Assembly: GCA_013041835.1 (NCBI GenBank)
Contig: JABDRH010000287.1
Span: 1 to 11,301 of the forward strand
Length of the DNA stretch: 11,301 nt
Origin: Desulfatitalea sp.
Lineage (GTDB): Bacteria; Desulfobacterota; Desulfobacteria; Desulfobacterales; Desulfosarcinaceae
Direction: 5' to 3'
The position numbers were made by a program, and so were the translations under genes. Position 1 is the first letter of the stretch; each line of letters opens with the position of its first letter. Below the pieces are notes generated by a model that was given only the letters and a program-made list of their open reading frames with translations, was not told where the DNA came from and searched no databases. Below, one piece after another: positions 1 to 11,301 of the stretch.

Positions 1-41
1 GGCAAGTGTTTAATTTTTTTTGTTTTTTTCTGGTTTTTTGC

Positions 42-70
42 TTGACAAACATATCAGTGTGATATATATT
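42..70 (+). promoter_or_regulatory. Near-consensus sigma-70-type promoter
   Basis: A perfect -35 box TTGACA (42-47) is followed by a 17-bp spacer and a -10 box TATATT (65-70). Upstream, bases 11-39 carry three T-tracts (about 13-21, 23-29 and 34-39) spaced close to one helical turn. These could act as an UP element or a curved segment. The promoter faces the operon that starts at 134. The spacer is occupied by a perfect palindrome, so the promoter is probably repressible. Confidence 0.75.
51..65. promoter_or_regulatory. Palindromic operator inside the promoter spacer
   Basis: ATATCA-GTG-TGATAT is a perfect inverted repeat, with 6-bp arms and a 3-bp centre. It lies between the -35 and -10 boxes and touches the -10. 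A protein bound here would block RNA polymerase. The CI-type HTH protein encoded at 1208-1405 in the same operon is the obvious candidate, which would make the circuit autoregulatory. That assignment is inference. Confidence 0.6.
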
Positions 71-80
71 AGAGGTAACA

Positions 81-107
81 ATGGGGATCGGCCAGGGTCC
101 CCGATAA
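81..107 (+). CDS. Possible 8-codon leader peptide
   Basis: An ATG at 81 opens eight codons (MGIGQGPR) and ends in TAA at 105-107. AGAGG at 71-75 sits five bases before it as a possible ribosome binding site. The same bases can pair as GGGGA (83-87) with TCCCC (98-102). Such a short frame may be chance. If translated, it would affect folding of the leader ahead of the gene at 134. Confidence 0.25.
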   Translation: MGIGQGPR

Positions 108-133
108 ACCCAAACGCAAGGAAAGGATGAAAA

Positions 134-496
134 ATGGACATTATCATCAAAGAGACCGGCGAAGTCGAGGAGCTCCGTATTATTGACCGTAAAAACGGTG
201 TTAATTGGGCAGGTGATTTGGTCGGTAATCACACAATCGACGCGGACTGTGAAGAGGACGAGGACGGCATCATGATTATGGATCTTAGGACCCACCAATG
301 GTGGGATAATTTGACAACTACGCTACAGGCGGCGGAAGATCGATTTTGGGAGATGATAAAGGATATTCCGGGATCAGAGTGTGAACCCGGTACGCCATAT
401 CATGAGTTAATGGAGCAATTCAACGAACGCGATGGTGACCTTGAGGACCAACCGTCGCTTATCCATGCGATATGTGACGGTTACCAAAACCGCTGA
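134..496 (+). CDS. Acidic hypothetical protein, first gene of the regulated operon
   Basis: This 120-residue protein matches no family I can name with confidence. The ATG at 134 has AAAGGA at 122-127, six bases upstream, so the start is well supported. The protein is strongly acidic, with about 30 Asp/Glu against about 9 Lys/Arg. An acidic run lies near residues 36-44, and the start (MDIIIKETGEVEELRIIDRK) reads like a short beta-rich opening. It has no membrane segment and no signal peptide. It is the first gene behind the strongest promoter in the window and is separated from the next gene by a GC-rich hairpin, so it is probably the most highly expressed product of the operon. The charge recalls DNA-mimic anti-restriction proteins, but that is only a resemblance in composition. 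Confidence 0.75.
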   Translation: MDIIIKETGEVEELRIIDRKNGVNWAGDLVGNHTIDADCEEDEDGIMIMDLRTHQWWDNLTTTLQAAEDRFWEMIKDIPGSECEPGTPYHELMEQFNERDGDLEDQPSLIHAICDGYQNR

Positions 497-511
497 TTGA
501 ACAACCAAGGC

Positions 512-531
512 AGCCCCGCTTCGGCGGGGCT
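512..531 (+). terminator. Strong UUCG-loop hairpin after the first gene
   Basis: AGCCCCGC (512-519), loop TTCG (520-523) and GCGGGGCT (524-531) form a perfect 8-bp stem closed by a very stable tetraloop, 16 bases after the stop codon at 494-496. No T-tract follows. It could therefore be a partial terminator or a 3'-end stabilizer that lowers expression of the three genes behind it. I see no separate promoter between it and the next gene. Confidence 0.6.
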
Positions 532-579
532 ATAAAACTGAGAAAACAAAAAAAGAGGCTTTTGTGTGAGGTTAGTCTA

Positions 580-1218
580 ATGATGGCCGATCAGATTTTG
601 GAAATTCGTCGATTGTTAAAGTGGAAGGTATTTGAAATTTATGCGCCGCCACGCGCAATGGAGATCGTTTCAGATCCTTGGCAGCGCAGCCATACTATTT
701 ATTTGCCCCAGCCCGACGACGATTGGCGAGATATCGAATATTTGCATGAGCTCGCCCATAGTTACTTAGCCGAAACGGTGCATCCGTTACTTGGTACGGC
801 ATATTTCGCTAAAGGCACACCACAGAAATGGATTGACCGTTTTGAGTGGCCAAAACGGACGGCGGCAGACTGGTTCGCCGATGATTTGTTGATTCGTTGG
901 TGCCCAGACGAGGAGCGCGAGGAGATTGCCGAGCATGTTGAGCTGATGGCTAACGCAAAATCTTTTACTGATCAATTTTTGAAATTTGGCGCAGGGCTCA
1001 TGTTCGCCCAGGCGGTACAATACCGGGTTGCCCATCCTCCTGTTCCCCGCGAAGTTGCCCCCGTCGTCGAAATTTTACGGGGAATTCGGCCGAATAATCC
1101 GAGCCTGCGAAATATGCGCCGATTGATAAATCGTTTGGCGACACTTACAACGGCTCATCAACTCATCGTTGTAAGTGAGCCAAATAATTTTGACGTTTGG
1201 GGAATTGATGACAACTGA
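580..1218 (+). CDS. ImmA/IrrE-like zinc metalloprotease
   Basis: This 212-residue protein contains HELAH at residues 56-60, the HExxH zinc site of metallopeptidases. It is followed at residues 95-104 by AADWFADDLL, which resembles the conserved helix of the ImmA/IrrE family (usually E-A-x-x-F-A-x-x-L-L). ImmA-type proteases inactivate a partner HTH repressor to switch on mobile-element genes. The next gene encodes a small CI-type HTH protein and overlaps this one by 11 bp, which fits that arrangement. One oddity is that the acidic third ligand expected four residues before the Phe appears as Ala here. A neighbouring Asp (97, 101 or 102) could replace it. The ATG at 580 is preferred because GAGG at 568-571 lies eight bases upstream. 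An in-frame TTG at 562 would add six residues. Confidence 0.7.
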   Translation: MMADQILEIRRLLKWKVFEIYAPPRAMEIVSDPWQRSHTIYLPQPDDDWRDIEYLHELAHSYLAETVHPLLGTAYFAKGTPQKWIDRFEWPKRTAADWFADDLLIRWCPDEEREEIAEHVELMANAKSFTDQFLKFGAGLMFAQAVQYRVAHPPVPREVAPVVEILRGIRPNNPSLRNMRRLINRLATLTTAHQLIVVSEPNNFDVWGIDDN

Positions 1219-1405
1219 AAACGATAGGCGGGTGAACCGCATCCGTAGATACCTGGGTTGCAAAACCGATGAAGAACTCGCGGAAAAAATTGCTACATAC
1301 CAACCGAATGTTTCAAGGTGGCGTCGCAACGGTTTCCACAAATCAACGTCAATTCTGATTGACTGCCTTTTGGATGTAATAAAAATTTTGAAAAAACAAA
1401 TTTAA
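1208..1405 (+). CDS. Small CI-type helix-turn-helix DNA-binding protein
   Basis: This 65-residue protein consists almost entirely of a helix-turn-helix. Residues 16-42 read as CI-family N-terminal DNA-binding sequence: the LGCKTDEELAEKI helix, then QPNVSRWRRNG as turn and recognition helix. No S24 peptidase or other C-terminal domain is present, unlike lambda or P22 repressors. The ATG at 1208 lies within the end of the metalloprotease gene, with GGGGA at 1199-1203 upstream, so the two are probably translationally coupled. A GTG at 1175 in the same frame is possible but would lengthen the overlap. By analogy with ImmR/ImmA, this protein may bind the palindrome at 51-65 and be controlled by the protease encoded upstream. 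That link is inferred from position. Confidence 0.7.
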   Translation: MTTENDRRVNRIRRYLGCKTDEELAEKIATYQPNVSRWRRNGFHKSTSILIDCLLDVIKILKKQI

Positions 1406-1419
1406 GGGGAAAAATAATC

Positions 1420-1866
1420 ATGAGTCGTTATCCGAATCAACGAACCAAGGATATAATTACCAACGCCATGTGTGAAATATTTGATGTCGCTGCTCCCTGG
1501 CCTTATCCTGATCGCGATGACGATGACGAACTCCGATATTATGACGAGAGGATGGTGGCTTATCGCCGTAAATTGTTGATAATTGCCTTCCGCCAAATGT
1601 TGGAAGAGTTGGATAATAATTTTAATGTTGTCGACTCTGTGATCATCGAGTCGAGCTTATTAACGTTGATCGAGAGACGTTGGGAGAAACGAGACCCCCT
1701 ACCCAAATACAACGACTGGGAAGAGCGGCGGAAACACCTAGAAATGTGGATGACAGACCACTGTGGCGAAATGCTGAAGCGGTTTGGCGAAGATTTTGAA
1801 AATGAAGATAGGCAAATCATCGAGGAATGTGTTCAACGGTTGGTTCATCGGCGGATTTCGGATTGA
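1420..1866 (+). CDS. Hypothetical protein, last gene of the ImmA/HTH operon
   Basis: I do not recognise this 148-residue protein. The ATG at 1420 has a strong site, AAGGGGA at 1404-1410, nine bases upstream. That site overlaps the stop codon of the HTH gene, so the genes are co-transcribed. The protein is highly charged and looks mainly helical. It has a Pro/Asp-rich stretch at about residues 26-38, including a four-Asp run, then helices rich in Arg and Glu. No Cys/His cluster, nucleotide-binding loop, signal peptide or membrane segment is visible. As the fourth gene in an operon with a protease and a repressor, it could be an effector or a further partner, but nothing in the sequence shows which. 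Confidence 0.65.
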   Translation: MSRYPNQRTKDIITNAMCEIFDVAAPWPYPDRDDDDELRYYDERMVAYRRKLLIIAFRQMLEELDNNFNVVDSVIIESSLLTLIERRWEKRDPLPKYNDWEERRKHLEMWMTDHCGEMLKRFGEDFENEDRQIIEECVQRLVHRRISD

Positions 1867-1870
1867 TCTG

Positions 1871-1892
1871 CTGTTCTTTTTCTAAAGGACAG
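1871..1892 (+). terminator. Hairpin downstream of the operon
   Basis: CTGTTCTTT (1871-1879) pairs with AAAGGACAG (1884-1892) across a TTCT loop, with one G-T wobble. It starts four bases after the stop codon at 1864-1866 and lies between convergent genes. There is no clean T-tract after it. A second short hairpin, GCCCC-AAA-GGGGC (1910-1922), follows inside the 39-bp repeat. Together they probably mark the transcript end. Confidence 0.45.
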
Positions 1893-1894
1893 GC

Positions 1895-1933
1895 CCCCTT
1901 CTCCCCTCTGCCCCAAAGGGGCAACCGGTGTCA
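1895..1933 (-). repeat. 39-bp inverted repeat, left copy
   Basis: The reverse complement of this segment matches 11206-11244 at 38 of 39 positions, with one A/G difference. Its core is the hairpin GCCCC-AAA-GGGGC, and it ends in CCGGTGTCA. It sits between the stop of the gene at 1420-1866 and the convergent minus-strand gene. Read around the circle, this copy and its partner face each other and enclose about 2.0 kb holding the whole ImmA/HTH operon. I see no transposase and no clear target-site duplication. Confidence 0.85.
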
Positions 1934-1946
1934 TTCCGCGACCAAC

Positions 1947-2399
1947 TCAAAACGGGAGCAACTCAACATCGGAATCGATTGTCGGTAATCCAAAAAGTTC
2001 TCGGTCAACGTTGCGCTTAATGAACGGAGCGACCCTTTTAACCAACGTCTCCAAATCACATTTATATTGATCAAGGAAATAAGCACCAATCAAAATTGTG
2101 CCCCGCAGCCCTATGCTTTCTTCCTCGGACAGCTGCTTCTCGATAATTTGATCACCTACGGCAACCGGGAGTCCGAACAAGGCCCTATCATAGGGCCGGG
2201 TCAAAAATGAATCTAACATATTCATTAAACACATCCATTCTCCGTTGTGCAGATATTCCCGTCTAAAATATGTCCCAACCAAAACTTTTTTCCGTGTGTC
2301 TTTTCTTGATTTAGTGTGCCGTGCTTTGTTTTCAGCGTTGACGATGCGGGCTTTCAATTGCGCCTCGCGTGATTTCAGAGACTCAATAGATTTTTTCAT
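1947..2399 (-). CDS. Internally duplicated accessory mobilization-type protein
   Basis: This protein of about 150 residues has a basic, probably coiled-coil N-terminus (residues 1-36). Two copies of a module of about 38 residues follow: LVGTYF at about residue 40 to DRALFGLP, then LIGAYF at about residue 103 to DRELFGLP. The same module occurs once in the 98-residue protein encoded at 4008-4304, after a similar coiled-coil start. This protein is therefore a doubled relative of that gene. Small coiled-coil proteins of this size next to MOBQ relaxases act as relaxosome accessories (the TraC/TraD or MobC role), and that is the likely job here. The ATG at 2399 has a weak GGGA site five bases upstream. 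The GTG immediately before it (2402) is the alternative. It is the last gene of the minus-strand operon. Confidence 0.7.
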   Translation of the reverse strand: MKKSIESLKSREAQLKARIVNAENKARHTKSRKDTRKKVLVGTYFRREYLHNGEWMCLMNMLDSFLTRPYDRALFGLPVAVGDQIIEKQLSEEESIGLRGTILIGAYFLDQYKCDLETLVKRVAPFIKRNVDRELFGLPTIDSDVELLPF

Positions 2400-2443
2400 C
2401 ACGTTCCCATCCCAATATTTTTAAACCGGCAACCAACGCTTTT

Positions 2444-3988
2444 CTAATTCGATTCGAGGTCGAACTCAGCGCCTAAAGACCTATGCTTTTGAAATTCTTT
2501 TTTTTTAAGTTTGGATTTTTCCACCGTTATCGTTAACGCATCTGGGTTGTCAAATCCGAACTTCACGGCTTCATTTTTGGCCATTTCGGTCAAAATTGCC
2601 TTGGCATCCACTTTTGGTACATTCTCAACCGATATTTGACGCCGGCGGTTTTTGGCGCGGTCCTCGATATTAATTGTATACGCGCTGTTATCAATGTAGT
2701 GGTGCGCCTTATCCAAGGTTCGTGTCAGATACGCCTGCCGGTTTTTTTCGCCTTTATGAGACCCCCAATCGGACCTTTCGTTGGCTATCCGGTCCACGAT
2801 TTCATAATCCGGCACGTCCCGGCGCATCAATGCCATGGCGTAAGCAAGGTCTTGCTCTGATTCTTTGATTTTTCCTTTTGCATCCAAGCCTTTGAAATAG
2901 TCATCGCGTGTCGGCAAAACGGCCGAATTTACTTTGTAAGGCGTTCGGTCGGCAGGAGGGATTTCCAGGCTTGGCTTTTGGGCTGGCTCGATGAGTGGGA
3001 TTTGCGCCTGTTTGGCCCAATCCACCCATATGATTTTCGCCAGTGGATAACCCCCATCTTTTTCGTATTTGTCTTTTCGGTTTCTAAACCCCGGACATCG
3101 GCCCCATCGGCGCTTTGGGCTTGCGCCGGGGTCCGAGCGCATGACACGCAGCCAATGCGATTTTTCCGAATTATCCACAGGCCTGGATGATTTAATCCAC
3201 ACTTGGTAATTGCCAGGGCTAGTTTCAACCACCAAGCGGCCCGGCTTAAAGCTGCCATCGCGTTTGTGACATGCGTTTAGATGCTTTTCATCCAGGTCAT
3301 CGTGCATTATGAAATACGGCTCTTTATCAACGGTCGGGCGTATGAAGATGTGTCGCCCTTGAGCATTCATTGCCTTGAGGTACCCGATGTTTTTTTCGGC
3401 GAGCCAAACGGCGGCTTCTTTGTCGTTTTGGCTATCACGGAAAACGCCGATTTCGTATTCACCGAAAAACTTTTCAAGCTTACCGAAAACCTTTTCCATT
3501 CCTTTTTGATTTTCAGAGGGACGGCTATCTGCAATCCCATGTTTTTTTTCAGCAGTCACATGGTTTTTAGTTTTTTCTTGGTTTTCGCCATCGCAATGAA
3601 CGACACGATAAATCGAGTTACTGGAGTTACATTCATTTACGGTGCCAAATTGTACCCAATTTTTTTGATGCTGGTTCTGCCGCTCTGTTTCGTAACGAAC
3701 CCAAAGACAATATTTGCCGTCCGGTTTTTGCAATACAAAGCGGCCCGGTCGCCAATTACCATTAGATCGATGGTCGTTGAGGTCGTCTTCGGAAAGGTCA
3801 TCATGAATGGAATAAAATGATCTTACGTCCTCGGCAGGCCCAATGAATATATCCTCGTCTGGATCCAAGGCACACATGGTGATATCGATTGCGTCTGGAA
3901 GAATTGTATTGATATCCCCATCATTCATGGTACCGTATCGTTGCCAACCGTGGAAATACATGGACAATTTATTGTTAAGATCTTTCAC
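2444..3988 (-). CDS. RepB-type DNA primase with a duplicated, degenerate N-terminal copy
   Basis: This 514-residue protein has the hallmarks of plasmid RepB primases. NAQGRHIFIRP lies at 208-218, the acidic pair HDDLD at 229-233, ETSPGNYQVW at 255-264 and PGFRNRK at 299-305. A basic helical C-terminal half follows (SEQDLAYAMALMRR and a Tyr-rich helix). The family lays RNA primers on single-stranded origins, as RepB' does at the RSF1010 ssi sites. A second, weaker copy of the core precedes it at about 33-115: IFIGP (47-51), HDDLS (62-66) and RPGRF..KPDGKYCLW (80-96). That copy lacks the T-S-P-G and P-G-F-R-N-R-K motifs. The start is a GTG at 3988 with AAGGAGG at 3999-3993, four bases upstream. 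It is co-transcribed with the 98-residue gene, 19 bp ahead. It is probably the plasmid replication protein. Confidence 0.8.
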   Translation of the reverse strand: MKDLNNKLSMYFHGWQRYGTMNDGDINTILPDAIDITMCALDPDEDIFIGPAEDVRSFYSIHDDLSEDDLNDHRSNGNWRPGRFVLQKPDGKYCLWVRYETERQNQHQKNWVQFGTVNECNSSNSIYRVVHCDGENQEKTKNHVTAEKKHGIADSRPSENQKGMEKVFGKLEKFFGEYEIGVFRDSQNDKEAAVWLAEKNIGYLKAMNAQGRHIFIRPTVDKEPYFIMHDDLDEKHLNACHKRDGSFKPGRLVVETSPGNYQVWIKSSRPVDNSEKSHWLRVMRSDPGASPKRRWGRCPGFRNRKDKYEKDGGYPLAKIIWVDWAKQAQIPLIEPAQKPSLEIPPADRTPYKVNSAVLPTRDDYFKGLDAKGKIKESEQDLAYAMALMRRDVPDYEIVDRIANERSDWGSHKGEKNRQAYLTRTLDKAHHYIDNSAYTINIEDRAKNRRRQISVENVPKVDAKAILTEMAKNEAVKFGFDNPDALTITVEKSKLKKKEFQKHRSLGAEFDLESN

Positions 3989-4007
3989 GAACCCTCCTTT
4001 GAGGATC

Positions 4008-4304
4008 TCACAATTTTTCTATGGTTTCTTTTGGCTTTGAGGTATTCGATGACTTATCTTCCGGTGAAAGCCCGAACAAGGCACGGTCGGCAGGCTTTTT
4101 CAGGTAGCCGGCCTTGTTCATCGTGTCGGCAACAGACTTCAGATTGTTGTCGGATTCGGCACGTTCCAAATAATACTTGCCGATGATTTTGATCATCGCG
4201 TTCCTCTGCTTTTTGGCCTCATCCTTAACCCGCCGTTCCTCGATAGCTATCTGTTCCTGTATTTTTGTGATTTGGTCCTTCAACTTATCTAGTTTTTTGC
4301 TCAA
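4008..4304 (-). CDS. Small coiled-coil accessory mobilization protein
   Basis: This 98-residue protein has a Lys/Glu/Gln-rich coiled coil at residues 1-35, a helical segment with IIGKYYLER, and the motif PADRALFGL near residue 80. It has the size, charge and position of TraC- or MobC-like relaxosome proteins, which assist the relaxase at oriT. It is encoded divergently from the relaxase, across the oriT region. One copy of the module is present here, against two in the gene at 1947-2399. The start is TTG at 4304 with GGAGGT at 4316-4311, six bases upstream, which is convincing despite the rare codon. It is the first gene of the minus-strand operon, ahead of the primase. Without a family search the exact family name remains uncertain. 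Confidence 0.75.
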   Translation of the reverse strand: MSKKLDKLKDQITKIQEQIAIEERRVKDEAKKQRNAMIKIIGKYYLERAESDNNLKSVADTMNKAGYLKKPADRALFGLSPEDKSSNTSKPKETIEKL

Positions 4305-4324
4305 AATACCACCTCCATTAAATG

Positions 4325-4354
4325 ATTATACGACATAGATTTTTGATAAACCAA
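4325..4354 (-). promoter_or_regulatory. Promoter for the accessory/primase operon
   Basis: On the minus strand a perfect TATAAT (4330-4325) follows TTGGTT (4354-4349) at 18 bp. The expected start of transcription, about 4318, lies just ahead of the GGAGGT site at 4316-4311. The leader would be extremely short. Confidence 0.55.
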
Positions 4355-4398
4355 GAATACAGAGAAAACAAGCAAAAATGCAATACCGATCTCACCCG

Positions 4399-4428
4399 TT
4401 GACACGCAACCGCAAAATAAAATAAAAG
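4399..4428 (+). promoter_or_regulatory. Possible promoter for the relaxase gene
   Basis: A perfect TTGACA (4399-4404) is followed at 18 bp by TAAAAG (4423-4428), in an A-rich stretch. Transcription would cross oriT before reaching the relaxase gene, so a bound relaxosome could repress it. The -10 is a weak match. Confidence 0.4.
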
Positions 4429-4441
4429 ATAGGATACCTTA

Positions 4442-4458
4442 GCGCTGCGCAGCAGCGC
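4442..4458. other. GC-rich hairpin beside oriT
   Basis: GCGCTGC (4442-4448) and GCAGCGC (4452-4458) form a perfect 7-bp stem with a 3-base loop. A related word, GAGCGCAGCG, follows at 4469-4478. The hairpin lies between the presumed relaxase promoter and the nick region. It may be a binding site for a relaxosome protein or an attenuator. Confidence 0.5.
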
Positions 4459-4481
4459 CCACACGAGGAGCGCAGCGACCG

Positions 4482-4525
4482 AAGTGCGCACTTATACAAA
4501 CCTGCGGTTTGTAAGTGCGCTCGCC
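4482..4525 (+). other. oriT, RSF1010/R1162-like (MOBQ) nick region
   Basis: ACAAACC (4496-4502), loop TGC and GGTTTGT (4506-4512) form a hairpin that runs directly into TAAGTGCGC (4512-4520). In RSF1010 and R1162 the oriT core is likewise an inverted repeat followed by TAAGTGCG and then C, with the nick between that G and C. By analogy the nick here lies between G4519 and C4520. The arms extend further, with GCGCACTT (4486-4493) against AAGTGCGC (4513-4520) and a TA bulge. AAGTGCGCACTT (4482-4493) is itself a perfect palindrome. The site lies about 40 bp upstream of the relaxase gene, the usual place. Confidence 0.8.
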
Positions 4526-4560
4526 GCCCAAGTGGCCGTTTTGAAAGGCATTATCAACAT

Positions 4561-7500
4561 ATGGCGGACTACAGACTACATGCCAATGTCATTACCCGAT
4601 CCAAAGGCGCAAGCGGGGTTGCCGCCGCCGCGTACCGATCCTGCGCCATAATTCGTGATGATCGTCAAGGTATCACATTCGATTATTCGAAAAAAAAAGG
4701 TCTTGCGCACTCAGAAATTTTGGCGCCATCGAACGCCCAGCCCTGGATGCTGGACCGAGAAAAGCTTTGGAACCACATCGAGAAAATAGAAACCCGCAAA
4801 AACTCACAGATCTCCAGAGAGATACAACTATCGCTTCCCGTAGAGTTGACATTGGAACAAAACATCGAATGCGCCAGGGAATTTATCATCAACACATATG
4901 TGAAAAATGGCATGATCGCCGATTTCAACATCCACATGAACGATGCAAACAACCCGCATGCCCATGTGATGTTGACCATGCGCAAAATAGAAGGGGATGG
5001 CTTCGGTGGAAAAAAAGCTGCACGAATCTGGAATGAACGCAAGCTTTTGAAACAATGGCGTGAACGGTGGGCTGAACACCAAAATATACACCTTGCAAAA
5101 GCCGGTCTGGATATCCGTGTCGACCACAGATCGTATAAGGATCAAGGGATTGATTTGATTCCACAGATCAAGGTTGGCGCCGCCACTTACGGGGAAAAGC
5201 CGCTCAATCTAGAGCGAGCTGAAAAATACAAAGAAATACTTGAAATAAACGGTCAAAAGATCATCGAGGATCCAGATATCGTTTTAGACGCATTATCAAA
5301 AAAACAATCCACATTCACCTATGACGACATTTTAAAATACGTCCACGCCCACAGCGATGAACAGCAATTCTATGATGCTCTAAGTGCGGTTTTAAATAGC
5401 AAGTCCATGGTTAAGGTAGAGGAAAAAGAGCACGGGCGCTTCGATCGCTATACCTATAGCGGGCTGATCGAAATCGAACGTCAAATGTATGTCGACACCA
5501 CACAACTTGACAACCAGCAAAACCATATTGTCGATGACCGGTACATTGATCGAGCACTTGCCAGCAAGTCGCTCTCGAAAGAGCAGGCTGATGTCGTCAC
5601 ACAGACTTGTAAGGGCAAAGACATACATGCAATCGTAGGATACGCCGGCGCCGGTAAAAGTTATACGCTGGATGCAATCAGGCATGCATACGAATCCAAA
5701 GGCTATCGCGTAAAAGGAGCGTCGCTTGCCGCTGTTGCTGCGGAAGGATTGCAAGACTCAAGTGGTATTGAATCGGTAACTGTTGCAAAGCTTCTCAATG
5801 ACTGGCAAAACGGCTATTCAACTATGGACAAAGACAGTGTTCTGGTCATCGACGAAGCTGGAATGTTGGGCACCCGGCAAATGCAAGTCATAGTTCAAAA
5901 AATACAAGAGGCAGGCGCGAAACTGATTGTTGTTGGAGACACCAAACAGACGCAAGCCATTGAGGCCGGAGCAGCGTTCAGAGGACTATTAAAATATACA
6001 TCGGCATCAATACTGAGTGAGATATGGCGGCAGAAAGAGGCTTGGCAACAGAGGGCCACACGCCTGCTCGCCGGAGATGAAAGGAACATTTCTAAAGCGT
6101 TTGATCTGTACATGGAGGCAGGGCACATTCATGAGCACTCAACATTCTCGTCGCTCGCGGACGACATGGTTCAAAATTTCGTTAAAAACTACACGGACAA
6201 AGAAACGTCCGTGATGATCGCCCACAAAAACGAGACGGTCGACTATCTTAACAGGCTGGCCCGATTTAACTTAAAGGAAAAAACGAGTTACGTCGATGAC
6301 CGTTCAGTTGATATTCAGACCAGCTCCGGGATCAAACAATTTTCTTCTGGTGATAGAATAATATTCCTAAAGACAGACTCACGATTAGGCTTTAAGAATG
6401 GCCAGATCGGAACGATATCCAAGGCCAAGCGAAACGGTATATTAATAGTTGATATGCCTGGAAATGAAAGTGTTGTCGTTGATACGCAGCGCTATGCACA
6501 TGTTGACTATGGTTATGCGGCAACCGTACACAAAACCCAGGGAGCGACATACGACTGTGTGTCGGTCGCTGCATCCGATGGATATGACCGCCACCTTGCA
6601 TATGTTGCGGCAAGCCGTCACAGAAAAACATTGAATGTCCATTATAGTACAGACCAATTTGAAAATTATGAAAAATTGAAATGGAAACTGTCCAGGAACG
6701 CTGAAAAGGAGTTGCTCCTCGATTATGAAAATATAGAACCGCTGGATAGAGACGCACTGACGAGAAAAACCAAAATGAACGCGACTTTCAATGAGAAGAC
6801 CAAAAAGGAACTAATCAGCGATTTGGGTGATGGCGTTCTGGACAGGATAAAATACGTTGGAACCGACTATGAAGGGAAAGACCGGTTCACTAGTGACGAT
6901 TATAAATCGGTAGAGGAAAAGCTATTCAAGAAGGCAAACCAACTTTGCGGTTCGAAGGTGCACGTTGTCGATAAAGAAACAATTAACCAGGTCCTGGAAG
7001 ACAAACCGGTTTCGAATGAATATCGTCATGTTGTCACCAATGCCATCAATGGTACGGATTTAACCGTTATTGAGCATCAATATGGCGCCGATTACGGTTA
7101 TGCCGCTCGATTAATCGCCGAAACCTATCGCCGAAAAGGATATATTGTCGAGGGCATCAGCATTGCCGGCATCGGCGCCGAAAATTTTATGGAAGATAGC
7201 GGCATCGATAGCGATACAATTGCGAAAAAGCTTTTTATGTGGTCCAAAGGCATCGAACGGCTAAGCGATAAGCACGTTATTTTTATCGAACATGCCAACA
7301 ATATTGGTACTGAACAGATGGATGAAATATTGACGTATGCCCAAGCAGGCGGCGCAAAAGTTTTGATGTTTGGGGAACATCAAGCTTTGCAATCCATCGG
7401 ATCAGGAGGAGCCTATCGTGGCATCATCGAATATGGCAAAGGAACACAATTAAAATTACGCCAACAGGGCAAGCTGAAGCCGTGGCAGCAAAAAGCATAT

Positions 7501-8442
7501 GAGTTGATGCAAGGCGATGAGGATCAAATCGAACAGGCCTTTGCATTGTTTTCGCAAAACGGTTGCATACATCGAACCTTTGATCCCGATGCCACAAGAA
7601 ACGGTCTTGTGCACGATTGGTTCATGGCCGTTAAGCAAACAAATTCGTATAGAGAAAATTTGATGTTGACGGTGTCGAACAAGACTTCTTTTGAGTTAAA
7701 CGAAAGTGCTCGAAAAAAGCTAAAGGCCGCAGGTTATGTCGATAAAGAGGATCATATAATTGATACAGAACTGGGGAGTCTTAAATTTTCTGCCGGGGAT
7801 CGTATCATGTTCCTGCGTAAAGAGAATGATATACAGGTAAAAAGCGGCACGTTAGGCACGATCCGCAGCATAGACGGCAGCCGTTTAGTTGTCGCTCTCG
7901 ATGGAGGTCCTGTCGTTACCGTCGAGTCGCGTATATATGATAGCATTACCTATGGCTACGCCACCAATATATACCGTGGCGCCAACATTCGTGCCAAGAA
8001 TACCTATGTTTTGGTTGACAAAAGCTTTGACAGACAGATTGCGATGGCCGCTTTGGGTGCCCACAAAAAACAGATAAAAATCTACCACAGTTTTAAAAAT
8101 CATCAGCAATTTGTCGATTCGGTCACTAGGTCACGCGAGAAAGATCTGGTCGCAGATTACCCGATGCACAAGCAGGTTTACAAACTGTCCGTGAAATTTC
8201 AAGCCTACCAGTGGAAATCAACTCACCTTGTGGTCGAGCAAAAAATGAGCGAAGAGGCCTTGAGGCGCCACCTTTCAAAAGAGACGGAAAAATTCATCGT
8301 CAAAGAGGCCGGGCGCATGCGCATTGCCATCGATCCGGCCACGACCGTGGCAAAGGTCGAAAAATTGGACAGAGACCAAGCCCTGGGCTTTTTGCACGAG
8401 AAAAACAACGATCGAAACGCACGTATTGACAGGGGGGTATGA
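4561..8442 (+). CDS. traA: MOBQ relaxase-helicase with two helicase copies, the second catalytically dead
   Basis: This 1293-residue protein would nick oriT, stay bound to the cut strand and unwind it for transfer. The N-terminal MobA/MobL domain (about 1-240) has the candidate nicking Tyr25 in SGVAAAAYRS and the metal-binding histidines H125, H133 and H135 (NPHAH). A RecD/TraI-type helicase follows, with Walker A GYAGAGKS (360-367), Walker B VLVIDEAG (427-434), GDTKQ (459-463), HKTQG (657-661) and AASR (683-686). A whole second copy of this region runs from about 774 to 1203. In it these motifs read HQYGADYG, EHAN, GEHQA, YRGAN and ALGA, so ATP hydrolysis there is not expected. Ti-type TraA has one helicase and is shorter. 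F TraI also has one dead and one active helicase, but in the opposite order. AAAGG (4544-4548) is the only visible ribosome site, 12 bases upstream. The nuclease gene overlaps the stop. Confidence 0.9.
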   Translation: MADYRLHANVITRSKGASGVAAAAYRSCAIIRDDRQGITFDYSKKKGLAHSEILAPSNAQPWMLDREKLWNHIEKIETRKNSQISREIQLSLPVELTLEQNIECAREFIINTYVKNGMIADFNIHMNDANNPHAHVMLTMRKIEGDGFGGKKAARIWNERKLLKQWRERWAEHQNIHLAKAGLDIRVDHRSYKDQGIDLIPQIKVGAATYGEKPLNLERAEKYKEILEINGQKIIEDPDIVLDALSKKQSTFTYDDILKYVHAHSDEQQFYDALSAVLNSKSMVKVEEKEHGRFDRYTYSGLIEIERQMYVDTTQLDNQQNHIVDDRYIDRALASKSLSKEQADVVTQTCKGKDIHAIVGYAGAGKSYTLDAIRHAYESKGYRVKGASLAAVAAEGLQDSSGIESVTVAKLLNDWQNGYSTMDKDSVLVIDEAGMLGTRQMQVIVQKIQEAGAKLIVVGDTKQTQAIEAGAAFRGLLKYTSASILSEIWRQKEAWQQRATRLLAGDERNISKAFDLYMEAGHIHEHSTFSSLADDMVQNFVKNYTDKETSVMIAHKNETVDYLNRLARFNLKEKTSYVDDRSVDIQTSSGIKQFSSGDRIIFLKTDSRLGFKNGQIGTISKAKRNGILIVDMPGNESVVVDTQRYAHVDYGYAATVHKTQGATYDCVSVAASDGYDRHLAYVAASRHRKTLNVHYSTDQFENYEKLKWKLSRNAEKELLLDYENIEPLDRDALTRKTKMNATFNEKTKKELISDLGDGVLDRIKYVGTDYEGKDRFTSDDYKSVEEKLFKKANQLCGSKVHVVDKETINQVLEDKPVSNEYRHVVTNAINGTDLTVIEHQYGADYGYAARLIAETYRRKGYIVEGISIAGIGAENFMEDSGIDSDTIAKKLFMWSKGIERLSDKHVIFIEHANNIGTEQMDEILTYAQAGGAKVLMFGEHQALQSIGSGGAYRGIIEYGKGTQLKLRQQGKLKPWQQKAYELMQGDEDQIEQAFALFSQNGCIHRTFDPDATRNGLVHDWFMAVKQTNSYRENLMLTVSNKTSFELNESARKKLKAAGYVDKEDHIIDTELGSLKFSAGDRIMFLRKENDIQVKSGTLGTIRSIDGSRLVVALDGGPVVTVESRIYDSITYGYATNIYRGANIRAKNTYVLVDKSFDRQIAMAALGAHKKQIKIYHSFKNHQQFVDSVTRSREKDLVADYPMHKQVYKLSVKFQAYQWKSTHLVVEQKMSEEALRRHLSKETEKFIVKEAGRMRIAIDPATTVAKVEKLDRDQALGFLHEKNNDRNARIDRGV

Positions 8443-8981
8443 TGCACAATGTGTTTTTAGCCGTATTTGCAAGCGCTGCTGTTCTTGCACTGCTCACACT
8501 GATCTTTCGGACCTTTCGAAAATCAAGAAGGGCTCGCCGGCACAGGAAATACATCCGAAAATCTGTTGAGCTGGTCAAAATGTTTCGGTCGTGGGGGACG
8601 GGTGCCGAAGCGCGGATATTTGGATATCTGCGAAAGGTTAACCCCATGGTGTTTGAGGAGCTTGTTTTGACCTGCCTTGAAAATGCCGGGGTGGTGGTTA
8701 AACGAAACCGACGCTATACCGGAGATGGTGGCGTTGATGGTATTTTCTATCTCGATGATGTTTGCTGGCTGGTACAGGCAAAACGATATTCGTCCGCCAT
8801 CAATCCGGCGCATGTTCGGGCCTTCGTCAAAAAATGCAACGGCCGGCCCGGCATGTTCATACATACTGGACGTACGGGCTCGAAATCATATTCTTACTTG
8901 GAGCAAAATGTTGTATTGGTAAGTGGTAATAGGCTCATCACATTTATTCTAGGCAGTCCCCTGGAAGTTTTACGGCGTTGA
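8439..8981 (+). CDS. Membrane-anchored Mrr-like PD-(D/E)xK nuclease
   Basis: This 180-residue protein starts with one hydrophobic segment (about 4-23) followed by a strongly basic stretch. That topology anchors it in the inner membrane with the catalytic part in the cytoplasm. The soluble part matches the Mrr_cat restriction-endonuclease fold: Glu73/Glu74 in VFEELV, Asp100 in GDGGVDG and Q113-A-K115 in WLVQAKRY. This gives the E...D...QxK active site. The ATG at 8439 overlaps the relaxase stop (ATGA), so the two are translationally coupled. A second ATG at 8442 is better spaced from the G-run at 8431-8437 and may be the true start. No methylase gene is present, so it is not a classical restriction-modification system. 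A role in transfer or in excluding incoming DNA is possible but not shown. Confidence 0.8.
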   Translation: MMHNVFLAVFASAAVLALLTLIFRTFRKSRRARRHRKYIRKSVELVKMFRSWGTGAEARIFGYLRKVNPMVFEELVLTCLENAGVVVKRNRRYTGDGGVDGIFYLDDVCWLVQAKRYSSAINPAHVRAFVKKCNGRPGMFIHTGRTGSKSYSYLEQNVVLVSGNRLITFILGSPLEVLRR

Positions 8982-9018
8982 TCACAAATGGCCCCCTGGT
9001 TGCACAAAGGGCGGAATA

Positions 9019-9528
9019 TCACTTCGATGCCGGGCAGGTCCGGGCGGGGGACCTCCTGATCGTTTGACCTTGGCGCTTGCCTTTCCGAAAGTCCCAGGGG
9101 GGAACGGGATTTTTATCCTGCCAAAGGCCGAAACCCCCAGCCTTGGCCGTTTTCTCCGCTTGGGCATAGTCCGAGTCCGAGGAATACTGCCGATAATGCC
9201 ACGCCAGCCCGGCCCTAAGTAGCTCCAGATTGAGTGATCGGCCGTCGTCCAAAAGCACGACGGCCACGGTCCGGCCATACCGGTCAGTGTCCTTAGGTAG
9301 GATCCGGACGGTTTTTCCGAAACAGGCATCCGACGTAAAAGTCTTGGCTTTCTGGCCATAGTCTTGTTTTTTCTCGGGGCAATCGATTCCGTGGAGGCGG
9401 ATTTTTGTTTGCTTGGTTCCTTGGAGAACTGTGATCGTATCCCCATCGGCAACCCCTACCACCTTGGCCGTCCACGGCTGGGCGGCGGCCGGCAGCACTA
9501 GCAGCCAAAGCAGAGACAGGATTGCCAC
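9019..9528 (-). CDS. Exported staphylococcal-nuclease-like (thermonuclease) protein
   Basis: This 169-residue protein carries a signal peptide (hydrophobic residues 3-13, then PAAA-Q with likely cleavage after Ala16) and an SNase domain at about 20-145. Motifs are VADGDTITV (26-34), IRLHGIDCPE (43-52, with Arg44, Asp49 and Glu52) and DRYGRTVA (82-89). These cover the calcium-binding and catalytic residues of staphylococcal nuclease, so a calcium-dependent nuclease acting in the periplasm or outside is likely. Such nucleases recur on mobilizable and conjugative plasmids (for example Nuc of pKM101), but their benefit to the plasmid is unclear. The last 25 residues are basic and Pro/Arg-rich. 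The GTG at 9528 gives a good signal peptide but has no clear ribosome site. The frame stays open upstream, so the start is uncertain. Confidence 0.85.
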   Translation of the reverse strand: MAILSLLWLLVLPAAAQPWTAKVVGVADGDTITVLQGTKQTKIRLHGIDCPEKKQDYGQKAKTFTSDACFGKTVRILPKDTDRYGRTVAVVLLDDGRSLNLELLRAGLAWHYRQYSSDSDYAQAEKTAKAGGFGLWQDKNPVPPWDFRKGKRQGQTIRRSPARTCPASK

Positions 9529-9586
9529 CGTTGAAAATTTGAAAGTGTTTTGTGTTGCCAGTTTTTTGGCCCTCTTTGCAGGGATT

Positions 9587-10162
9587 TCAGGAGATGAGTT
9601 GTTTGGCCCAGGCCGGCACAGGATCGGCCCTCATCTCAAAAGCACCGTTTTCCATCACCACGATTTGCCGAAATCTATCTTTTTCCGAAGAATTATCCAG
9701 AATCCACGCTGCATCTACTATTGTCAGGGCGGTTTTAATGTGTTTGATGGTCCTTGGGATACGAGAATGGATTTTGTCCGGAGGCACACCATGGCCGCCT
9801 TCGGTTGTGCGTTGATGGACCCTGGCCTCGTTCAAGCTGGGATCGAACAAATGGATGTAGACCAGGATGACGCGATATCCCAGACTTTTTGCTTTGGCGA
9901 TGAAATCGATCTTTGATGGGTGGGAAAAAACGGTTTCAAAACAAAACGATGCGCCTTGATCGAGCAACTCATTCCTGATGGTTTCCACGATTGCCGCGGC
10001 GTCATAACTCGATTTTTCGGGATTCTTCGGGTCGATCTCCTTGGCGATCAGATCCGCATTGACAAACTTGATGCCGGAATCCGCTAAATAATGTTGGTAG
10101 AACGTCGATTTTCCGGATCCGTTCCCCCCGGCCAAAAGCCAAAGTTGTTTTTGATCACCCAT
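9587..10162 (-). CDS. Zeta-toxin family kinase
   Basis: This 191-residue P-loop kinase has Walker A GGNGSGKS (12-19), NADLIAKEI (35-43) with a probable catalytic acid at Asp37, FETVFSHPSK (75-84), and R114...R118 followed by TEGGHGVP (120-127). This pattern is that of zeta/PezT-like toxins, which phosphorylate UDP-N-acetylglucosamine and block cell-wall synthesis. The protein is close to the minimal zeta core length. A ParD-like antitoxin gene precedes it and overlaps it by 8 bp, so the two form a toxin-antitoxin pair that kills plasmid-free daughters. The ATG at 10162 is chosen because it sits at the antitoxin stop (ATGGGTGA). A GTG at 10180 would add six residues. Some family members are non-toxic kinases, so the toxin role rests on the pairing. 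Confidence 0.85.
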   Translation of the reverse strand: MGDQKQLWLLAGGNGSGKSTFYQHYLADSGIKFVNADLIAKEIDPKNPEKSSYDAAAIVETIRNELLDQGASFCFETVFSHPSKIDFIAKAKSLGYRVILVYIHLFDPSLNEARVHQRTTEGGHGVPPDKIHSRIPRTIKHIKTALTIVDAAWILDNSSEKDRFRQIVVMENGAFEMRADPVPAWAKQLIS

Positions 10163-10559
10163 CAATACCCGTGAACTCACCGTTCGTGAATTTCCCTGTT
10201 CTTCTTTCTCCCGTCAGCGTATTGACCTTGTCGAGAAACCCCGGCCTCTCAGGGCTAGCCTCAAAATAGAACGGAGCGGAAGTGACCGGCTTGTCTGCAA
10301 ACCCTTGCCTTCTGTCCGCTTCGAGCTTGCCGAACACGGTATCCGAATCGACGGCTGTGGTTTGCATAGGTTCCACCCGCAGCCGCTTCAGACCCTGAAG
10401 TACTGCGAAGGCGTCTTTTATATCGACTACCGAAGAAACAAGCCTCCCCAGAGTCGCCCAATATTCGATTTGATGCGGAATGGATCGGCGTTGCACCGTA
10501 CAAACCGATTTTGCCTGGGAAACCAGCTCCGCATCCAGTCTTATTGATTTTGTCGCCAT
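10155..10559 (-). CDS. ParD-like antitoxin, partner of the zeta toxin
   Basis: This 134-residue protein begins with a ribbon-helix-helix-type segment (residues 4-42) containing SIRLDAELVSQA and RSIPHQIEYWATLGRLV. This is the signature of the ParD-like antitoxin family. The C-terminal part (about 75-134) is polar, Gly/Pro-rich and probably disordered until it binds the toxin. The protein should neutralize the zeta kinase by direct contact and repress its own promoter. The ATG at 10559 has only a weak GGACGG site upstream. The last codons overlap the start of the toxin gene, which keeps antitoxin synthesis ahead of toxin. The partner family is unusual, because classical zeta toxins are paired with epsilon or PezA antitoxins. 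Confidence 0.8.
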   Translation of the reverse strand: MATKSIRLDAELVSQAKSVCTVQRRSIPHQIEYWATLGRLVSSVVDIKDAFAVLQGLKRLRVEPMQTTAVDSDTVFGKLEADRRQGFADKPVTSAPFYFEASPERPGFLDKVNTLTGERRTGKFTNGEFTGIDG

Positions 10560-10594
10560 AATGAACCGTCCGAGGGTTTTGGTTTGCAGCGCAC

Positions 10595-10619
10595 AGCATC
10601 ATTTTGATGCTATATACCA
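10595..10619 (-). promoter_or_regulatory. Extended -10 promoter with overlapping operator for the toxin-antitoxin pair
   Basis: On the minus strand TGGTATATA (10619-10611) is an extended -10 element. The predicted transcription start falls inside the perfect inverted repeat AGCATC-ATTTT-GATGCT (10595-10611). A TTGACA at 10647-10642 is too far upstream (25 bp) to be its -35. The inverted repeat fits an operator for the ParD-like protein. Confidence 0.4.
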
Positions 10620-10671
10620 CAATTGCAACTTTTTGCGATATTGTCAAGGGGATTGATTATTTTAGGGTCTA

Positions 10672-10695
10672 TAGTGGTGTAGTGGTGTAGTGGTG
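10672..10695 (+). repeat. Three tandem TAGTGGTG repeats (iteron-like)
   Basis: TAGTGGTG is repeated three times without interruption. A further near copy, TAGTGGTA, lies at 11171-11178, next to the second TTTTAGGG word. Short tandem repeats at the edge of a non-coding replicon region are typical initiator-binding sites, although these are shorter than the usual iterons of about 20 bp. Confidence 0.6.
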
Positions 10696-10792
10696 TGTTT
10701 ATTATCGGGTCGATGTGGTTTCTTGGAATGTATGGGGCCATGCCGCGGAAGGGCTGCGGCACCGGGCTCTGCCAGGGCTCCGCTTCGCTCCG

Positions 10793-10816
10793 ATCCCGCA
10801 GCTTAGGCTGCGGGAT
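10793..10816. other. Perfect 10-bp hairpin
   Basis: ATCCCGCAGC (10793-10802), loop TTAG (10803-10806) and GCTGCGGGAT (10807-10816) pair without a mismatch. No T-tract follows on either strand, so a terminator is doubtful. It may be a structured element of the origin or of a non-coding transcript. Confidence 0.55.
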
Positions 10817-10969
10817 TGGCCCCTGAGGACCGGGGCCACCCTTCTGATCCCTTGGCCTTTCGCCGTCTCGGCGACCATTCCATGGAGGTAGGGAACGCTT
10901 CGCTGATCTATTTGATGAAAAGAGGAAAGGAACGATCCCGGCCGATAGGGCCGGCCCGGATCTGGTCTT

Positions 10970-11136
10970 GCGCTCTGCACAGACCAGGCAAGGCACTTTT
11001 TGCCGGCGTGTAACGGGCGGCAATTGCTGGCGGGCAGTGATAGACGGCCAAAATGCGGCCGACTATCACTGCCCGCTTTTGTTTGCCGCCCGTTACACAC
11101 CTTTTGCTTGTGCCTTGCCTGGACTGTGCAGAGCGC
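10970..11136. repeat. 167-nt nested palindrome with symmetric internal loops
   Basis: The two halves pair in four blocks around a centre at 11053. The blocks are 10970-10996 with 11110-11136 (27 bp, one A-A mismatch), 11008-11023 with 11083-11098 (16 bp, perfect), 11030-11043 with 11063-11076 (14 bp, perfect) and 11045-11049 with 11057-11061 (5 bp). The intervening loops have equal length on both sides (11 and 11, 6 and 6), although their sequences differ. This block-wise conservation suggests two facing copies of a recognised site. In RSF1010 the facing ssiA and ssiB priming sites, used by a RepB primase, have such an arrangement. Confidence 0.85.
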
Positions 11137-11205
11137 ATTTTATCAGGGCCTCTATAGAGTTTTAGGGGTGTAGTGGTATTTTGCGGGTTGTGGAGAAAGG
11201 GGGGG

Positions 11206-11244
11206 TGACACCGGTTGCCCCTTTGGGGCAGAGGGGGGAAGGGG
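11206..11244 (+). repeat. 39-bp inverted repeat, right copy
   Basis: This is the partner of 1895-1933, with 38 of 39 positions matching after reverse complementation. It begins TGACACCGG and contains the hairpin GCCCC-TTT-GGGGC. It lies about 115 bp upstream of the operon promoter on the circle. It borders the presumed origin on one side and the ImmA/HTH cassette on the other. Confidence 0.85.
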
Positions 11245-11281
11245 AGGGCGGGCAGGGCGGTTTTTTTAGGGTGGATTGTTT

Positions 11282-11301
11282 GGCAAGTGTTTAATTTTTT
11301 T
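11282..11301 (+). repeat. Terminal overlap with bases 1-20 (circle closure)
   Basis: These 20 bases are identical to bases 1-20. An exact overlap at the two ends of a contig is the usual sign of a circular molecule opened at an arbitrary point. The unique length is then 11,281 bp. Confidence 0.85.

Follow-up and report, generated by a model that had tools for sequence, protein, structure and literature searches.

We analyzed an 11,301-nucleotide stretch of DNA from Desulfatitalea sp. (family Desulfosarcinaceae; GenBank assembly GCA_013041835.1, contig JABDRH010000287.1), referred to below as the window. The window (1-11301) is the whole contig. The same 20 bases stand at both of its ends, as would be expected if it is a circular plasmid of about 11.28 kb. 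Its traA gene encodes a relaxase of the MOBQ family followed by two helicase units in tandem, of which the first (copy 1) is of the active type and the second (copy 2) has lost its ATPase motifs (Table 1).

According to curated cut-offs, the product belongs with Ti-type TraA (TIGR02768 / PRK13889). It scores 983.4 against a cut-off of 590.45 for TraA_Ti and 1023.9 against 1015 for PRK13889.1, the whole-protein score being summed over two stretches, and it has in common with this family the MobA/MobL relaxase domain and an active superfamily 1B (SF1B) helicase. Unlike the window protein, however, the Ti-type TraA models span one helicase; here an ATPase-dead unit is inserted between the helicase and the C-terminus. 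Owing to its two helicase units, the window protein is a variant, not a standard, Ti-type TraA.

The initial annotation had described two copies, residues 295-725 and 774-1203, at a constant offset of about 479 with small shifts later on. Local alignment of residues 285-770 with 761-1293 bore out this repeat, matching 295-741 with 774-1215 at 141/438 identical positions (32%) and a score of 587, compared with a mean of 43.7 (standard deviation 7.0, maximum 67) in 200 shuffles. The alignment begins with an ungapped block (295-492/774-971, offset 479), continues with small shifts and ends with the block 727-741/1201-1215. The extent given earlier was too short, the real units being about 245-741 and 746-1220. 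A helicase profile places them at 245-741 and 761-1220 in the window protein, and in several relatives (e.g. P0002 and P0004; P numbers denote proteins of our set) copy 2 starts at or near profile position 1, like copy 1. Since the second unit of these relatives aligns from profile position 1, the whole unit, including the pre-helicase segment, appears to have been copied head to tail, in units of about 480 aa.

Motifs I-VI of copy 1 are intact as judged from the sequence, and of SF1B type. In copy 2, GYAGAGKS has become HQYGADYG (K366 to Tyr845), GDTKQ has become GEHQA, HKTQG has become YRGAN and R686 is replaced by Ala1167. Together with the change at Walker B (Table 1), the losses reported in the initial annotation (Walker A Lys, Walker B acids, GDTKQ, HKTQG and the AASR arginine) are thus all present in the alignment. 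Taken by itself, copy 2 is still recognized by AAA_30 (6.9e-22) and by the TraA_Ti model (1.2e-77).

Table 1. Features of traA and of neighboring DNA in the window.
Feature	Position	Strand	Basis or remark
traA, relaxase with tandem SF1B helicase units, 1,293 aa	4561..8442, stop included	+	Open reading frame; NCBIfam cut-offs
MOBQ relaxase domain, residues 18-209	4612..5187	+	PF03389 (MobA_MobL) 2.5e-69; MobQ equivalog 237 bits, cut-off 200
Helicase unit 1 (copy 1), active type, residues 245-741	5293..6783	+	Motifs intact
Helicase unit 2 (copy 2), dead copy, residues about 746-1220	6796..8220	+	Profile match 761-1220, start extended to unit 1
Former Walker A, copy 2, residues 838-847	7072..7101	+	Aligned with GYAGAGKSYT of copy 1
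Former Walker B, copy 2, residues 906-915	7276..7305	+	FIEHAN replaces VIDEAG
2B/SH3 sub-domain of copy 2, about residues 1071-1126	7771..7938	+	Alone without conservation loss; approximate boundaries
Former motif V, copy 2, residues 1129-1146	7945..7998	+	Basic Arg1139 kept; ATP-side Gln lost (Ala1141)
Phe1156 of copy 2, hPIF1 F573 place	8026..8028	+	Mapped by spacing between motifs
Former motif VI, copy 2, residues 1160-1171	8038..8073	+	Arg lost
C-terminal segment, residues 1221-1293	8221..8439	+	By eye like the C-terminus of same-class single-helicase TraA
Probable oriT, inverted repeats TACAAACC/GGTTTGTA and GCGCACTTA/TAAGTGCGC	4482..4522	+	Directly upstream of traA
Accessory mobilization gene, 98 aa, divergent	4008..4304	-	Likeness to D. 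ovata 'mobilization protein'
RepB_primase, replication primase-like gene	2444..3988	-	Pfam match

Searches with copy 2, and with the whole protein against plasmids, yielded ten proteins with a dead second copy (P0001-P0006, P0026, P0027, P0028 and P0029). P0026 is encoded by the Desulfosarcina ovata plasmid Do28_1 (L004:8001-12893) and P0028 by D. cetonica; the latter also occurs, starting with its residue 2, on a contig of D. cetonica JCM 12296, and the TraA of G026, a genome in the family of the window's source, is identical to it. Where an annotated name is given (P0002 and D. ovata), it reads 'Ti-type conjugative transfer relaxase TraA'. Two helicase units were present in 13 of the 142 scanned proteins, namely the ten together with P0007, P0008 and P0138. 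Both copies of P0007 look intact; copy 2 of P0008 keeps Walker A and loses the catalytic Glu and motif V. We also observed that P0138 (2,034 aa) retains Walker motifs in both units and begins inside a helicase unit, with no relaxase family among its precomputed Pfam domains, and that P0026 and P0006 are longer at the C-terminus than the window protein by about 340 residues, which by eye look like repeats of a short module that also ends the single-helicase TraA of two other genomes (G009 and G011).

At 1e-20, the copy-2 profile matched 7 of 389 genomes of the class, two with a double helicase (the window's genome and G026) and five with a single one, and in the phylum sample it matched 5 of 395 genomes, including the window's. 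A single-sequence copy-2 search of the genome contig collection gave no match, and a five-row profile found D. cetonica alone in the genome contigs and nothing in the viral contigs. As for PLSDB, among the matches listed (732 records lie beyond them), identity was 37.3% for D. ovata and did not exceed 32.6% in the 29 others, two of which match at two places per record, as D. ovata does; among these matches, this suggests that the D. ovata plasmid is the sole one with the dead copy.

Five key ATPase residues are missing without exception. None of the ten second copies has the catalytic Glu, the Gln of motifs III and V or the Arg of motifs IV and VI, and all ten first copies have them. The P-loop residues G360, A362 and G365 are lost in all ten dead copies and K366 in eight, the place of the Walker A Lys being taken by Arg in seven, Lys in two and Tyr in the window protein. 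The window copy is more eroded than its nine relatives at Walker A and B, the Walker B Asp being kept in the other nine. Copy 2 is nevertheless full length in 10/10 predicted proteins (at the DNA level this was seen in three loci, those of the window, D. ovata and D. cetonica; the P0002 sequence is truncated at the N-terminus), with identity down to 0.325. In the closest pair, P0006 and P0026 from D. ovata, copy 2 is more conserved than copy 1 (0.836 against 0.803 protein identity). The window, D. ovata and D. cetonica loci being too divergent for the ratio of nonsynonymous to synonymous substitution (dN/dS), we compared codon positions; differences followed the order 3 > 1 > 2 in copy 2 in 3/3 pairs with DNA, and likewise in copy 1. 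Because ten full-length copies share the loss of five key ATPase residues, the view of copy 2 as a selected pseudo-helicase, put forward in the initial annotation, is well supported by comparison of the proteins, and the closest pair favors it.

We then asked where in copy 2 conservation is retained, using 28 active units for comparison (10 first copies, 16 single helicases and both P0007 copies; P0008 and P0138 left out). Among 81 columns conserved in at least 90% of the active units, copy 2 keeps 41 (same residue in at least 8/10 dead copies), loses 22 (at most 2/10) and is intermediate in 18, and 17 of the 22 lost columns sit in motifs I-VI at the ATP site, as assigned by motif. Within approximate sub-domain boundaries, conservation falls by 0.7-1.0 in N, 1A and both 2A parts of copy 2, whereas 2B shows no loss (-0.11, the mean loss being 0.67). 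None of 328 windows outside 2B has so low a value, and leave-one-out values range from -0.17 to +0.02. The match of this 2B to SH3_13 is weak (0.0024; 18.1 bits against a cut-off of 41). Thirteen columns are conserved in at least 9/10 second copies and at most 5/10 first copies, and 56 show the opposite pattern.

The ATP and single-stranded DNA (ssDNA) positions of copy 2 were compared with those of hPIF1, mapped by motif and spacing, with the N495 and H269 places left unmapped. In hPIF1, K234, E307, Q346, R381, G559 and R584 are described as contacting ATP, the residues of the ssDNA channel include N486, N495, H555, K556 and F573, and the K556 mutant has the greatest ssDNA-binding defect (PMC6451128). 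The ATP contacts are lost in copy 2, save at the G559 place (Gly in 5/10) and the K234 place (Lys in 2/10). At the K556 place in motif V, Lys or Arg is kept in 10/10 dead copies, while the neighboring ATP-side Gln is lost in all ten; the H555 place holds His, Tyr or Phe in 10/10, and the F573 place (Phe1156 in the window) holds Phe in 10/10 dead copies, 2/10 first copies and 10/18 other active units. Two candidates were rejected: a basic clamp surface, as net charge did not differ consistently between copy 1 and copy 2, and a newly conserved site in the former ATP pocket, as 20 lost columns (285-734), three of which (393, 500 and 613) lie outside the ATP site, are no more conserved than average (permutation p 0.61). 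Some former ATP-pocket positions show a clear new consensus (Tyr, Asp, Arg or Asn).

In a 47-row tree under a mixture model, the ten first copies formed one clade (100/99) and the ten second copies another (100/100). Both clades, together with five same-class single-helicase TraA and both P0007 copies, made up one clade (100/99), so that the phylogeny with single-helicase TraA proposed in the initial annotation places the two copies near single-helicase TraA of the same class. Copy-1 and copy-2 clades were sisters at 94/97 in a 59-row tree under a simpler model. The trees drew on 18 (47 rows) or 35 (59 rows) of 129 single helicases, with the P0138 copies excluded and P0143-P0153 outside the analyzed set. 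One old duplication followed by loss of the ATPase most likely underlies all ten dead copies, judging from these trees.

P0007 and P0008 resemble the window protein in having a tandem TraA-type helicase and differ from it in that they are separate duplications in the tree. The P0008 copies pair together (100/99), as do those of P0007 (100/98), and the approximately unbiased (AU) test, on groups chosen after the tree had been seen, rejected placement of P0008 copy 2 (p 0.006) or P0007 copy 2 (p 0.016) inside the dead clade. Both duplications look independent of the dead-copy lineage on this phylogenetic evidence, and the best tree implies three or more TraA helicase duplications within this sample. 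A homologue whose second copy keeps its motifs, which the initial annotation had named as an argument against its view, does exist in P0007, although it groups as a separate duplication. Only the dead-copy lineage shows a second copy with all motifs gone, that of P0008 being partly dead.

P0029, a metagenome protein on a 34.9-kb contig, carries a MOBP relaxase (PF03432, 1.6e-25; TraI_MobP_relax, 322 bits against 250) in front of the same active-dead pair, and its two units fall within the respective copy-1 and copy-2 clades. This suggests that the active-dead pair may move as a module between relaxases. As P0029 is a single sequence on one contig, it may be a chimeric assembly; querying with its copy 2 recovered two of the ten, P0004 and P0027, but the Pfam labels listed for the matches showed no further MOBP case.

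Relaxases with one active and one ATPase-dead SF1B helicase are known from TraI of F/R1 (MOBF; PDB 5N8O), which differs from the window protein in relaxase family, in its dead-active order and in its larger 2B/2B-like sub-domains. In the open-licence papers covered, F/R1 TraI was the sole natural case of a dead or tandem helicase in a relaxase, and an earlier description may exist elsewhere; on Desulfosarcina plasmid relaxases, these papers yielded nothing. Structural and functional accounts of F/R1 TraI (PMC5422253, PMC3912908) describe a protein in which the relaxase is followed first by the vestigial and then by the active helicase. The vestigial helicase binds ssDNA and has translocation signal A (TSA) within its 2B, and the 2B parts of the two helicases together clamp the strand. 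In these accounts, the active domain of DNA-bound F TraI adjoins the relaxase domain and the vestigial one occupies the opposite end, along the 3' half of the strand, and the authors suggest that the duplex may be split at the vestigial helicase; the opposite proximity is described for the relaxase mode in a 2025 relaxosome paper (PMC12117103). The linear order relaxase-active-dead of the window protein therefore equals the spatial order of DNA-bound F TraI.

By sequence models, the window protein is not an F-type TraI. The F-type TraI model scores 95.6 bits, below its cut-off of 929.85, and the TrwC-type relaxase domain PF08751 is not among the 18 Pfam families listed, PF03389 being found instead. 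The copy-2 profile matches F TraI weakly (5.5e-05 overall), best at 1033-1151 in the active domain. In a second stretch of that domain, not significant alone, the conserved GDR..FL block of copy 2 aligns with GDRMRFT, which suggests a shared 2B element. Separate origin of the dead copy from the F TraI vestigial helicase is supported by the MOBQ relaxase family, the grouping of copy 2 within TraA helicases (the trees held TraA helicases without those of F TraI) and the reversed order. The 'independent invention' with reversed order, proposed in the initial annotation, thus gains support from the TraA grouping and the match to F TraI 1033-1151.

TraI of pKM101 and TrwC of R388 are relaxase-helicase fusions too, but have no vestigial copy and are reported to work with one helicase (PMC9868005, PMC12117103), and transfer in general thus does not require a dead copy. 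In TrwC, the helicase domain has been duplicated artificially (PMC5826034). The best solved-structure match for both copies is RecD2 (PDB 3E1S, 3GP8 and 3GPL), a single active helicase without relaxase, whose family model scores 149.9 bits, below the cut-off of 500. From the profile matches to RecD2 and AAA_30, copy 2 probably keeps the helicase fold.

Taking these results together, we favor the reading, at a probability of about 0.6, that the window encodes a MOBQ TraA with a tandem-duplicated helicase, in which copy 2 would be a pseudo-helicase acting as a passive ssDNA clamp, possibly with a role in docking for secretion. The tandem duplication of the whole unit would go back to an ancestor whose hosts were Desulfosarcina-like bacteria or relatives of theirs; copy 1 would have stayed the motor (5'-3', by family) and copy 2 would have lost ATP hydrolysis early and been kept since. 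In transfer, the relaxase domain would nick oriT and retain the 5' end, copy 1 would translocate on the transfer strand, and copy 2, ahead of it towards the 3' side, would hold the strand passively through its 2A/2B channel, which may raise processivity and perhaps split the duplex. The 2B surface of copy 2 could offer a second docking or translocation signal for the type IV secretion system, a role for which the vestigial helicase of F/R1 TraI is the precedent. We proposed a passive leading clamp because of this precedent and the matching order, which would yield the arrangement of DNA-bound F TraI without a long linker. For the clamp suggested in the initial annotation, the residue-level signs are mixed, though favorable on balance: the motif V basic residue, the Phe and 2B speak for it and the N486 place does not.

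Several findings weigh against this reading. The sisterhood of copy 1 and copy 2 falls to just 73/81 in the 47-row tree, under the better, mixture model. In 44 of 45 pairs, conservation is lower in copy 2 than in copy 1, and the 56 columns mentioned above are conserved in copy 1 and vary in copy 2. The 2B sub-domain was picked out after an initial conservation scan, and its GDR..FL block occurs in active copies too and may reflect folding. Among the channel positions, the N486 place (KNG motif) holds Ser in eight dead copies, Ala in one and Asn in one, and the Phe found at position 1156 is also the commonest residue there in the other active units, so that it does not set the dead copy apart. 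Nor does copy 2 have a consistently higher net charge. Finally, when the F-type TraI model is aligned with P0026 and P0029, it is its front part (333-654 and 389-660) that best fits their first helicase, and the relation to the two TraI helicases is therefore not fully clear-cut.

A different role for copy 2 would be mainly that of a protein-docking platform, no longer in contact with DNA, for a coupling protein, an accessory mobilization protein or a partner relaxase. Its strongest retained constraint lies in 2B, the sub-domain that bears TSA in R1 TraI (PMC3912908, PMC5422253), and the Pif1-type 2B Asn for ssDNA is mostly lost. The basic residue of motif V and the channel Phe, both kept in 10/10, speak instead for contact with the strand. 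Moreover, no secretion gene was recognized by Pfam in the 11 scanned open reading frames of the plasmid, which may mean that the partner machine differs between carriers, and such variation would weaken the case for a fixed docking surface. We regard this role as unlikely.

Copy 2 might also bind nucleotide without hydrolyzing it and regulate copy 1, as in Brr2, whose active N-terminal cassette is followed by an inactive C-terminal one termed an intramolecular cofactor (PMC8220420). The order of the two units is the same, and the new consensus residues at several former ATP-pocket positions also speak for this. However, Brr2 is a superfamily 2 Ski2-like RNA helicase whose inactive cassette retains nucleotide binding and its pocket, whereas G360, A362 and G365 are lost from every dead copy and K366 from most, and the 20 lost columns are conserved only to the average degree. 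This explanation seems improbable.

The lower conservation of copy 2 in nearly all pairs and the greater erosion of the window copy at Walker A and B are what a functionless, decaying remnant would show, yet such decay is very hard to reconcile with a complete copy 2 in each of the ten deeply divergent predicted proteins, with the closest pair and the codon pattern of purifying selection in all three comparisons, and with the retention of 1.4 kb on an 11.3-kb plasmid. Least probable of all is inheritance of the two-helicase protein from F TraI, or a shared duplication with it, for although both pair one active with one dead helicase and the front part of the TraI model fits the first helicase of two members best, the relaxase is MOBQ and not MOBF, copy 2 groups with copy 1 of TraA, and its profile matches the active domain of F TraI.

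With F/R1 TraI as the sole natural case in the papers covered, needed features are hard to tell from accidents. A second and apparently separate case, with the opposite order and on a plasmid of 11.3 kb, offers a natural comparison, in which features retained both in F TraI and in the window lineage are candidate working parts. P0007, with both copies intact, and the half-dead P0008 show what else can become of such a duplication, and the MOBP version points to an active-dead pair that travels as a module. More tentatively, and short of what we would call probable, relaxases may have evolved more than once a leading helicase that is ATPase-dead and serves as clamp and platform for secretion, here separately from F TraI, with the active-dead pair as a portable module of MOBQ and MOBP relaxases.

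The plasmid around traA looks mobilizable rather than self-transmissible, because no secretion-system gene was matched by Pfam in the 11 scanned open reading frames (33 are listed in the window). Directly upstream of traA, the inverted repeats of the probable origin of transfer (oriT) pair 4486-4494 with 4512-4520 and 4495-4502 with 4506-4513. The window has a single copy of the 12-mer GCGCACTTATAC (at 4486), and so do the regions upstream of traA in D. ovata and D. cetonica. This candidate oriT presumably resembles those of RSF1010 and Ti type. The divergent 98-aa product is 29/93 identical (1e-11) to a D. ovata 'mobilization protein' encoded at the equivalent place. A 151-aa gene at 1947-2402 (-) resembles a two-fold version of this accessory gene, each half matching the 98-aa protein (2e-06 and 8e-06) and both carrying a D-R-x-LFGL motif. 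Pfam matches further identified an Mrr-type nuclease-domain gene and a staphylococcal-nuclease-like gene. In addition, a zeta-toxin-like gene adjoins a ParD-like gene at 9587-10559 (-), possibly an unusual toxin-antitoxin pairing.

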